64,000 nucleotides of DNA, taken from assembly GCA_013390905.1 (NCBI GenBank), contig JACATG010000002.1, positions 1 to 64,000 of the forward strand, written 5' to 3'. Shown piece by piece: positions 12,514 to 16,722 of this stretch. Positions within the stretch are counted from its first letter, which is position 1; the number at the start of each line of letters is the position of its first letter. The notes under the pieces were generated by a model, which was not told the DNA's origin, made no database searches, and was given only the letters and a program-made list of their open reading frames with translations. Position numbers and translations under genes: made by a program. This stretch comes from Marine Group I thaumarchaeote (GTDB lineage: Archaea; Thermoproteota; Nitrososphaeria; Nitrososphaerales; Nitrosopumilaceae).

Positions 12514-13818
12514 TTAACTTTGCTCAATTATTACTTTTTTACGCCTACGCATAATGTAAATTCCTGCTCCTATTGCCAGAATAATTGGAATAATTATCAT
12601 TGTTTGATCTAAACTACCTTCATCGCTGTTTGATGGTTCTTTAACAAAGATTGTTGCATCATGAGTTAGAAAAATCTCATCTCTAATACTGTCTTTGTAT
12701 CTTACAGTAACAGTAATGTCGTGTTCTCCATATCTTGGTTCACCATCAAATTCAATTTGAATATTAAAGGGTACAGGTGCATCAGTCTCAATTTCATCAA
12801 TGAATTGAGTACTGGATTTGATATTGGAGTTTCCACGAGATTCAACAGTTACAAAGCCAAATAATCCATCTTCATTTCCTTCATTAATTATTTCTCCAAT
12901 TAGCATTTGTGTGCCAGACAATTCGATGACATCAACATTATAGATAAATAAATCAATAAAGCCTTTAACAAAGAAATCTGCAATTCGTGAAATAGTTTTT
13001 TTATCACCATGTGCATTAAAATAAGTTATTTCAATAGGTGCACGAAGTGTCTCACCTTTCAAAGATGCTGGTACATATACGTCAAGTTCGATAAATTTTT
13101 TCGATTTTGGTTCAATTCCACCAATTTCCCAATCAGTATTTAGAACTACAACGTTCTCAATATTAGTAACAGATTGACTTGTTGCTGCCCTTTCACTTTG
13201 TGTATTTTTTAGTCCAATATCTACACTTGAAATTGGTGCTGTTCCATCATTTGAAATTTCAATTATTATATGATTTTGTTGTAAGGATGTAAGAAATGGA
13301 TTCAGTGCACGTACATTTATCACGCTTTGTCCAGTTACTTTAAAATTAAAATCTTCAAATGCAGTTCGAACTCCAGATTCTCTTAGTCGCGAATAATCGA
13401 TTTTGATAGTACCAGAATATTGTTGAATTCTGACAGTATTATCTATATCAACAAAAAATGTTAGATAGAAATTTTCTCCGGCAATCGAATTGGAGTTAGC
13501 ATCTGCATCAATTAACGAACCAGGTCCATCTGAAGATGAAAATCCAAAAGGTAATGATAGTTGACCTCTTATTCCCGTAATATCTTGAGTCCCAACATTT
13601 GCCATTACTACAGTAAATGGTACGTTTTTGTTTCCAGAATCAATCTCAAATTTTTCATCAATTATTCCAAAATAGGCATCAAGAAATTTGACATCTCCAA
13701 AGTTTCTATCAAAAGGAGAATTGCCAAATCCTCCAGATGTTATTTGGGCAAATGAGTTATCAAAAACAAATGGTACAAGTCCAATTATAAATAATGATAA
13801 CAAGAGTTTAAGATTCAT
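12514..13818 (-). CDS. Exported CARDB-like beta-domain protein with C-terminal anchor
   Basis: The 434-aa protein has a signal peptide (residues 1-25), several extracellular beta-sandwich segments with features of CARDB/NEW3 domains (QNHIIIEISNDGTAPISSVDIGL, MLIGEIINEGNEDGLFGFVTV), and a C-terminal helix (IIIPIILAIGAGIYI) followed by RRRKK, which anchors it in the membrane. Its start overlaps the end of the ABC ATPase gene by 4 nt, so it is translationally coupled to the transporter and likely works with it outside the cell. Confidence 0.75.
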   Translation of the reverse strand: MNLKLLLSLFIIGLVPFVFDNSFAQITSGGFGNSPFDRNFGDVKFLDAYFGIIDEKFEIDSGNKNVPFTVVMANVGTQDITGIRGQLSLPFGFSSSDGPGSLIDADANSNSIAGENFYLTFFVDIDNTVRIQQYSGTIKIDYSRLRESGVRTAFEDFNFKVTGQSVINVRALNPFLTSLQQNHIIIEISNDGTAPISSVDIGLKNTQSERAATSQSVTNIENVVVLNTDWEIGGIEPKSKKFIELDVYVPASLKGETLRAPIEITYFNAHGDKKTISRIADFFVKGFIDLFIYNVDVIELSGTQMLIGEIINEGNEDGLFGFVTVESRGNSNIKSSTQFIDEIETDAPVPFNIQIEFDGEPRYGEHDITVTVRYKDSIRDEIFLTHDATIFVKEPSNSDEGSLDQTMIIIPIILAIGAGIYIMRRRKKVIIEQS

Positions 13819-14522
13819 TTTGCTAAGACCTCTATTTTTGAGGGCTGATCACCTTCGAAGGCTTTACCATCTTTAATTGTTATTACTCTATCTACATCAC
13901 CAAATTGTTGTCTATCATGTGTAACTATAATGAATGTTTGATTGAGTTTTTTTGCCATTGATTTCATTAATTTAACAATTGTTTCTGAAGTTACTGAATC
14001 AAGGTTACCAGTTGGCTCATCCGCTAAAACAATTGAAGGTCTATTGATTAATCCTCTTGCAATTGCTACTCTTTGAGCTTGCCCACCTGAAATCTTGTTT
14101 GCACGATTATGCATTTGGTTTTCAAGTCCAACTACTTTTAGTAAATCTCTAGCATCTTTTTCAGCAGTATCAATAGTTTTGGCAATTTGTCTCGGTAACA
14201 TTACATTTTCCAATACTGAAAGATCACTAAGCAAATTAGAAAATTGGAAGATAAATCCCAATTTTTTATTTCTAAATGAGGAAATTTCATTGTCATCAAG
14301 TGTTGCAGTCCCAATTCCATCAATGAAGATCTTTCCATTTGTTGGACGATCTAATAATCCAATCATGTTAAGCAATGTTGATTTGCCAGAGCCAGAACTT
14401 CCAACAATCAGAACAATTTCTCCTCGCTCAATTGAAAGTGATACATTATCAAGAGCTTTTATTTTTATTTCTCCTTCTCCGTAAATCTTACTTAGATTGG
14501 TGATTTCAAGTACTCTAGGCAG
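13815..14522 (-). CDS. ABC transporter ATPase, MacB/LolD type, non-canonical start
   Basis: The ATPase has Walker A SGSGKSTLLN, Q-loop (LGFIFQFSNLLSDLS), signature KISGGQAQRVAIARGL, Walker B IVLADEPTGNLDS and the H-loop (IIVTHDRQQ), as in MacB/LolD/FtsE-type exporters. The first ATG in frame (14375) comes after Walker A and cannot be the start. Upstream, the frame runs back to a TGA at 14526-14528 with no ATG, GTG or TTG. The best candidate is CTG at 14522, overlapping the permease stop and giving 235 aa, the normal family length. Other near-cognate codons are possible. Confidence 0.85.
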   Translation of the reverse strand: MPRVLEITNLSKIYGEGEIKIKALDNVSLSIERGEIVLIVGSSGSGKSTLLNMIGLLDRPTNGKIFIDGIGTATLDDNEISSFRNKKLGFIFQFSNLLSDLSVLENVMLPRQIAKTIDTAEKDARDLLKVVGLENQMHNRANKISGGQAQRVAIARGLINRPSIVLADEPTGNLDSVTSETIVKLMKSMAKKLNQTFIIVTHDRQQFGDVDRVITIKDGKAFEGDQPSKIEVLAK

Positions 14523-15702
14523 TTCTCATAGCCTCCACTGGCAACAGCTTGGTTGCTCTATACGACGGGTATAGTGATGCAATAATTGCCAAGAAAAATG
14601 AAGTCAAAGCTGTCTGTGTGATCTTTTCCCAGTTATAGGTGACTTCAAGAGGGAGGCTATTATTGAATTCCATTTTTGTTTCCTTTGCATAATACGTATA
14701 GCCTAATCCGGCAGCAGTTCCTACGCCAGCACCAATTGCTCCAATAATCATTCCTTGAAAAATAAAAATTATTAGAATGTCTTTTCTTTTAGCTCCTATT
14801 GATCTCATGACACCAATTTCTCTAGTTTTTCCATTTACTAACATCATCTGAATTGTAACAATAGCAAATGCTGATGACATCATCCCAAAGTAACCTATCA
14901 TGTTAATCATTGCAATTCCAGATCTAAAACCAGCAAGTTGTTGTTCTGCTGATTCTTCTATAGTTTCTGCACGAAAATCATCGTTAGGAAAAGAACGCAA
15001 GAAGAATTCTTTTACTTCTAATGCTTTAGAAGGATCATTTAGTTTTACCATTATTGAACCAGTTTGTCCAGATCTACTTAACATATCACGTAAAGTATCA
15101 ATATGTATGACAACAGTATAATCAAATCCTTGACCTCCAGGTGATTTTGCAATTCCAGAAACAGTAAATCTTTGAATTTGATCTTCTCCCCATCTATCAA
15201 CTACTTTAACTTTAATACTATCTCCCACTTGAGCTCCTCCAAGATCTTTTGCTACATTAGATCCTAACACAATAGAATTTCTTGAGAAGACATAGTTTCC
15301 TTCTAAAATAGTTTCATGAACAGTAGATGTTCGAATATCACGAAATGGATCTACTCCTACAATTGGTATTCTAGTTTCTTCATATCGCTTTCCATTTTTT
15401 ATCATATTTATTTCGGCAGTTGATGAAAGCCGCGGAGTAGCCGCTTCAACATATGGAATTCTTTCAAACCAATTTACAAGTAATAAATCTGATTTATCGA
15501 TATAGTCGGATTCATCAGTTACAAGAATATCACCATTTCGATAATTACTGATATCTCTAACTATGGCATCAAACAGTCCTTGAAATATTACAAAATTTAC
15601 GTGAATTACCAAAATCCCAATGGTTACAGCTAAAACTGCACCAATCAAACTACTTCTTTTATTGAAAAGCATTCTTTTTGCTAATCTTAATCTATAATCC
15701 AC
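14515..15702 (-). CDS. ABC transporter permease, MacB/FtsX family
   Basis: The 395-aa protein has one N-terminal membrane helix, a large extracellular MacB_PCD-type domain (about residues 40-265), and three C-terminal helices containing the FtsX motif region TREIGVMRSIGAKRKDI. This is the mechanotransmission type (type VII) transporter, which moves lipoproteins, peptides or drugs outside the membrane rather than through it. It is first in the operon with the ATPase and the CARDB-like protein. There is no MacA-like adaptor nearby, so the CARDB protein may take its place. Confidence 0.88.
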   Translation of the reverse strand: MDYRLRLAKRMLFNKRSSLIGAVLAVTIGILVIHVNFVIFQGLFDAIVRDISNYRNGDILVTDESDYIDKSDLLLVNWFERIPYVEAATPRLSSTAEINMIKNGKRYEETRIPIVGVDPFRDIRTSTVHETILEGNYVFSRNSIVLGSNVAKDLGGAQVGDSIKVKVVDRWGEDQIQRFTVSGIAKSPGGQGFDYTVVIHIDTLRDMLSRSGQTGSIMVKLNDPSKALEVKEFFLRSFPNDDFRAETIEESAEQQLAGFRSGIAMINMIGYFGMMSSAFAIVTIQMMLVNGKTREIGVMRSIGAKRKDILIIFIFQGMIIGAIGAGVGTAAGLGYTYYAKETKMEFNNSLPLEVTYNWEKITQTALTSFFLAIIASLYPSYRATKLLPVEAMRTA

Positions 15703-15819: not shown

Positions 15820-16722
15820 ATGGACAATTTAGATATGAAAATTCTAAGCAGACTTTTGAATAATTGTAGAGAATCTGACAGGCAAATAGGCATAAAATTG
15901 GGAATATCTGGTGGAGCAGTTCGTGCTAGAATTAGAAAGATGGAAGAGAGAAAAGTTATTGGAGAATTTTTTATCAAAGTTGAACCATCTGTATTTGGTT
16001 ATGGTGTTTTGTACTTTGTTGTATCAGGAGAAAATATTGACGAGATTTTTGAGCAAGTAAGTCTTGTAGGTGAGCCATTTTTTGTGGTACCATGTGTAGG
16101 TGGAATTTCAGTCTGCAGTATTGTTGTAAAAGAGAATATGAAACAAAAAATTGAGCTTGCAAGTAAATTGATGAAAGATGTTAGAGTCCTATCAATTTTT
16201 GAAGCAGAGAATACTGGATTTAGTTCAAATCTTACAAAAACAGATTTAGAAATTCTAGAGAAACTAATAATAGATCCTAGACAGAAAATTGAAAATATTG
16301 CTAAAAGTACAAACTTGTCAACTAAAACAATAACAAGATGTATTGAAAAGTTACAGAAGAACGATGGAATACAGTTTACCTTAATTTATGATTCTAGAAA
16401 AATTGAAGATTTTATTCCTCATGCCATACTTACTTGGATAGAAGGTAATCTAAAAGAAACATTAGAAAATCTGAATAATACTTTTTCTGAATCATATTTA
16501 CAAATTCCTTTCATTGCAAAAAATCAAATTGTTTTATTTATGTATAGTGATAATATTTTCAAGATGGATGAATTAACTCAAAAAGTTAGAACCATTAAAA
16601 ATGTGAAATCAGCAGATTTATTTATTCCAAAAAAGATTTTGTTTTACATCAAATGGTTAGAAAAGGCTATTAATAATTTCAAAAAATCATCTAGATTACA
16701 TTTAACATATCAAACAAATTAA
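15820..16722 (+). CDS. Lrp/AsnC-like regulator with two HTH domains
   Basis: The 300-aa protein has an N-terminal AsnC-type HTH (MDNLDMKILSRLLNNCRES through AVRARIRKMEERKVI), a ligand-sensing-like domain, then a second HTH (DLEILEKLIIDPRQKIE..., STKTITRCIEKLQ) and another alpha/beta segment. This duplicated layout is common among thaumarchaeal transcription factors. It is divergent from the MacB-type operon and shares its upstream region, so it is the likely regulator of that operon (inference). Confidence 0.82.
   Translation: MDNLDMKILSRLLNNCRESDRQIGIKLGISGGAVRARIRKMEERKVIGEFFIKVEPSVFGYGVLYFVVSGENIDEIFEQVSLVGEPFFVVPCVGGISVCSIVVKENMKQKIELASKLMKDVRVLSIFEAENTGFSSNLTKTDLEILEKLIIDPRQKIENIAKSTNLSTKTITRCIEKLQKNDGIQFTLIYDSRKIEDFIPHAILTWIEGNLKETLENLNNTFSESYLQIPFIAKNQIVLFMYSDNIFKMDELTQKVRTIKNVKSADLFIPKKILFYIKWLEKAINNFKKSSRLHLTYQTN

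Follow-up and report, generated by a model that had tools for sequence, protein, structure and literature searches.

Where does translation begin in a gene whose reading frame holds no ATG, GTG or TTG ahead of its Walker A motif? An ABC transporter ATPase gene raises this question in the window analysed here (the whole stretch of 64,000 nt from the start of contig JACATG010000002.1 of a Marine Group I thaumarchaeote, a Nitrosopumilus-like archaeon). Its frame lies on the minus strand, where 236 codons run open from 14525 to a stop at 13817-13815; upstream, an in-frame TGA (14528-14526) closes it.

A CTG codon at the head of the ATPase frame

After this TGA the codons run GAA, CTG, CCT, AGA, GTA, CTT, GAA, ATC and onward. 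We re-read the minus strand and found, in agreement with a preliminary description of this DNA, no ATG, GTG or TTG in frame from the TGA down to a TTG at 14375-14373, which is codon 51 after the TGA. The same description had placed the first ATG at 14375 and after Walker A; the position is indeed past Walker A, but the codon there is the TTG, and the first in-frame ATG is at 14366-14364. Since both codons lie after Walker A, neither could start a working ATPase.

The CTG at 14522-14520, two codons downstream of the TGA, is the only sensible start. Initiation there would yield a MacB/LolD-like ATPase of 235 amino acids plus a stop (13815-14522, minus strand; Pfam ABC_tran), and the length and the overlap with the permease TAG that had been described for this codon agree with the coordinates, the overlap being 8 nt. 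The first residue of MJ0796, the best solved relative, aligns with residue 6 of the frame, and so the true start should be close to the CTG.

Start codons at the same position in relatives

The preliminary description had proposed an alignment of the start region in relatives, and we carried this out with orthologues from across Nitrosopumilaceae, taking in Nitrosopumilus and many further genera. Across the family the junctions align without gaps from a GAGG motif to the start codon. Of 129 distinct genes aligned initially, 97 have CTG 9 nt downstream of GAGG, 19 have ATG, 11 TTG and 2 GTG, and no codon other than NTG occurs at exactly this distance. When this set was enlarged with further genera to 138 distinct genes, the counts became 99 CTG, 23 ATG, 12 TTG, 3 GTG and 1 ACG. 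The single ACG orthologue (G192, L329/L354) is less certain, as its N-terminus is extended and a CTG in the same frame offers an alternative. A non-canonical codon stands there in 100 orthologues. In 90 of them the frame holds no canonical codon upstream, and 36 of the 90 lack one for at least 40 codons downstream as well; in the other 10, the upstream canonical codon lies inside the permease gene. A stop codon stands at the same distance upstream as the TGA of the window in 108 of the 138 genes.

Outgroup orthologues continue this pattern. In f3 (genus g27), where the gene order is the same, two genomes have ATT at the position and one has TTG; in f15, two operon copies have ATT and ATG there. 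ATT was seen 9 nt after GAGG in outgroup loci L332, L334 (G225, G290) and L335/L363 (G310); L334 and L335 offer no canonical codon close by in its place. Some genomes carry two ATPase copies, among them G164 (L119, L151) and G073 (C43, C20); in G164 one copy has ATG at this position and the other GTG. All codons found at the start position are AUG or its one-base neighbours. CTG is thus conserved at a place without a usable ATG, GTG or TTG, and is exchanged only for ATG, TTG or GTG, once for ACG, and in outgroups for ATT. A local mutation or an assembly error would be a vanishingly improbable source of the CTG, as independently assembled genomes throughout the family, some of them single contigs, carry the same codon there.

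Initiation could also be imagined at another near-cognate codon further down, such as ATC at 14504-14502 or ATT at 14486-14484. Both are in frame, and translation table 11 permits ATT and ATC as starts. However, relatives have ATT, ATA, GTT, GTA or GTC in place of the ATC, and a start there would lack a conserved Shine-Dalgarno (SD) sequence at the right distance and would shorten the first strand of the ABC fold. We consider such a start highly unlikely. From the aligned sequences, the CTG at 14522-14520 is very probably the real start codon of the ATPase.

Column changes on the gene tree

The preliminary description had offered, besides initiation at CTG, a frameshift that links the two genes. 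A programmed +1 shift near the permease stop would produce a permease-ATPase fusion and remove the need for any ATPase start codon. This is consistent with the ATPase frame being +1 relative to the permease frame, and since the TGA just upstream closes the ATPase frame, a shift would be possible only in a short window before the permease stop. Within that region, however, the aligned orthologues have no conserved slippery sequence near the zero-frame stop; the last permease codons vary, and the stops themselves are divided among TAA (63), TGA (43) and TAG (31). In many lineages ATG, GTG or TTG stands in for CTG at the same codon.

The substitution pattern bears on this further. On a gene tree quickly built from 140 sequences, in which support for the forks is weak, the six codon states require at least 20 changes, and at least 16 switches (gains or losses) separate CTG from non-CTG. 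The changes fall almost wholly on the first base of the codon, with at least 19 there against one each at the second and third bases; nearby third-position columns that vary freely show 35 and 31 changes on the same tree. Read in the permease frame, the second base of the start codon falls at a wobble position and would be expected to vary freely, yet it is nearly fixed. This locking of the second and third bases argues strongly for the signature of a start codon, as opposed to an internal leucine codon or a frameshift site. Conservation of start-capable codons thus speaks strongly against the frameshift, to which we give very little credence.

Overlap with the permease and the Shine-Dalgarno sequence

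The gene upstream encodes a MacB_PCD/FtsX permease (14515-15702, minus strand) with a probable GTG start at 15702-15700 and a TAG stop at 14517-14515. This GTG has no SD sequence, its surroundings are rich in AT, and a TATA-like stretch precedes it; the mRNA is possibly leaderless. The ATPase start and the permease stop share 8 nt (CTGCCTAG, 14515-14522, minus strand), a short stop/start overlap of the kind found in coupled pairs, and it is kept in the aligned orthologues of the family.

A GGAGG (14532-14536, minus strand) within the permease gene precedes the CTG by 9 nt and is complementary to the 3' end of 16S rRNA, whose tail GGATCACCTCCT was found in the window's own genome. Its GAGG is invariant in the family at 9 nt upstream of the ATPase start codon. 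Because this GAGG falls within the permease motif V-E-A, selection on the protein could explain part of its conservation. The codon choice nevertheless points to selection for the SD sequence: the glutamate there is encoded by GAG in 129 of 129 genes, although GAG is the rarer glutamate codon elsewhere in the same permeases (279 of 1,223, or 23%, with the sequences being related).

A third gene follows on the same strand (12514-13818), whose ATG overlaps the ATPase TGA by 4 nt. It encodes a probable secreted or membrane-anchored protein of 434 amino acids, for which a profile search of Pfam and NCBIfam gave no match; this probable exoprotein is possibly the outside partner of the exporter. A divergent Lrp/AsnC-type regulator (15820-16722, plus strand) adjoins the operon. 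The ATPase is of the MacB/LolD exporter type, with an ABC_tran domain that carries Walker A, signature and Walker B and with a MacB_PCD/FtsX permease beside it. Its scores are below the NCBIfam equivalog cut-offs for LolD (254 against 308 bits) and for MacB (201 against 966 bits), and the LolC/E cut-offs are likewise not reached. The arrangement resembles MacB, LolCDE and FtsEX-type exporters in its ABC_tran ATPase beside a MacB_PCD+FtsX permease, and differs from them as an archaeal three-gene cluster with an exoprotein and scores below these cut-offs.

How CTG may be used and why it may be kept

Given the 8-nt overlap between the start and the permease stop, the best reading of the mechanism is SD-assisted, translationally coupled initiation at CTG. 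Ribosomes that finish the permease would reach a stop overlapping the ATPase start, the GGAGG 9 nt upstream would hold the small subunit at the CTG, and initiator Met-tRNA would start the ATPase there despite the mismatch. The first residue would then be methionine. Such weak initiation would probably keep ATPase synthesis low and tied to translation of the permease. Of the earlier proposal that CTG initiation is coupled to the permease, the CTG is borne out by the alignment of relatives, and the coupling is suggested by anatomy, namely the 8-nt overlap and the GAGG 9 nt upstream. An ARAGORN scan for an unusual initiator tRNA returned only CAT anticodons for Met, in a scan that missed several expected tRNAs.

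The weakness of the start may itself be a selected property, but selection acting at the permease C-terminus may also account for the retained C. In its fullest form the latter explanation makes CTG a tolerated by-product without a regulatory role: a requirement for a small residue (Thr, Ser or Ala) near the permease C-terminus dictates the C in the overlap, and a strong SD sequence plus coupling make the weak start good enough. This explanation too takes CTG to be the start and departs only over the reason for its retention, so that its probability, which we put a little short of even, does not compete with that of CTG initiation. Given the overlap of start and stop, permease selection does help to conserve this region. 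In CTG genes every overlapped permease residue is T, S or A (83, 11 and 5, respectively), and ATG goes with Y or N there and TTG with V, F or I. On the other hand, this residue is not strictly conserved, as T, S, N, Y, A, F, V, I and G (nine) all occur, and although AGT (Ser) would leave the residue small and create a canonical GTG, only 3 of 138 genes have GTG. Either selection on the weak start or selection on the permease may explain the retention of CTG as the ATPase start.

An apparent second near-cognate start in Nitrosopumilus

We screened 936 orthologous reading frames of two Nitrosopumilus genomes (1.2 Mb each) for coding-type conservation upstream of the first canonical codon. Two pairs stood out, the ABC ATPase and a single-domain Lrp/AsnC regulator. 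Simple upstream-alignment screens yielded numerous false candidates, since short stretches of upstream DNA can align in any frame by chance; only a comparison of changes at third positions with those at first and second positions was informative. This codon-position filter is insensitive where the first canonical codon lies within about 10 codons of the real start, and the ABC ATPase pair was recognised in an earlier candidate list and not by the filter. As the screen is insensitive to short cases, the two cases are a lower bound.

In the window's own genome the regulator lies at G000:C18:9571-10020 on the plus strand (L307; also found at L293-L303 and L312-L315). Its start is an ACG that directly follows an in-frame stop (AGGTGTTTTAG, then ACG), with AGGTG 6 nt upstream. 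ACG is present in the Nitrosopumilus genomes examined and in g3 and g2; the same codon is ATG in g4, g5, g8, g9 and outgroups, and TTG in g6. In g4, which has ATG instead of ACG, the upstream AGGTG has become GAGAG. Of 95 Nitrosopumilus genomes, a pattern search recovered this ACG arrangement in 57, the window's own included; the rest may differ at a base of the pattern or lack the contig. Near-cognate starts are rare but apparently real in Nitrosopumilaceae.

Comparison with known systems

Since the CTG start is kept across most of the family, our results suggest that weak start codons can be stably used in marine ammonia-oxidising archaea and are missed by gene-finding software. Gene callers limited to ATG, GTG and TTG would truncate this ATPase past Walker A, or drop the gene, in many marine archaeal genomes. 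CUG gains are very rare: across 36 bacterial and archaeal groups they number 2 among 61,358 ancestral AUG starts, 1 among 5,080 GUG and 1 among 2,468 UUG (PMC5622118). CUG is the majority state here, kept across an archaeal family. We found no earlier report of a CUG start in this ATPase in the open-access literature on archaeal CUG starts, and CUG starts are not mentioned in a review of archaeal initiation or in a review of translational coupling. The latter review does describe short stop/start overlaps, with -8 among the recurrent spacings, in genes for subunits of one complex, as is seen for the permease and the ATPase. In Sulfolobus, aIF1 reportedly discriminates against non-canonical starts (PMC8211752). 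The ATPase CTG lets start-codon stringency be tested by natural comparison in archaea, whose mode of initiation is similar to that of eukaryotes.

The closest parallels are bacterial. Like the ATPase, Streptomyces sigR has a non-canonical start conserved in related genomes (GTC in 32 of 34, GTT in 2), a strong conserved SD sequence (AGGAGGTG) and membership of a translationally coupled pair, and experiment has shown that its GTC lowers synthesis and sets stoichiometry via IF3 (PMC5472188). It differs in being bacterial, in using GTC, and in being confined to one genus, with its absence from other actinobacterial genera (PMC5472188). In addition, sigR is the upstream gene of its pair whereas the ATPase is the downstream gene, and archaea have aIF1 and not the bacterial IF3. 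The infC gene, with ATT in E. coli and ATC in Streptomyces, has likewise kept a near-cognate start in evolution (PMC5472188), but its start serves IF3 autoregulation, whereas the ATPase is part of a transporter with no known link to initiation fidelity. Tentatively, and with rather more doubt than confidence, we propose that the CTG ABC ATPase and the ACG Lrp/AsnC regulator may belong to a small, regulated class of weak starts in ammonia-oxidising archaea, with output set by SD strength, coupling and aIF1 stringency, which would be the archaeal counterpart of IF3-controlled infC and sigR. Conserved non-canonical starts are already known in bacteria from these two genes; to them the ATPase CTG adds an archaeal, family-wide example.
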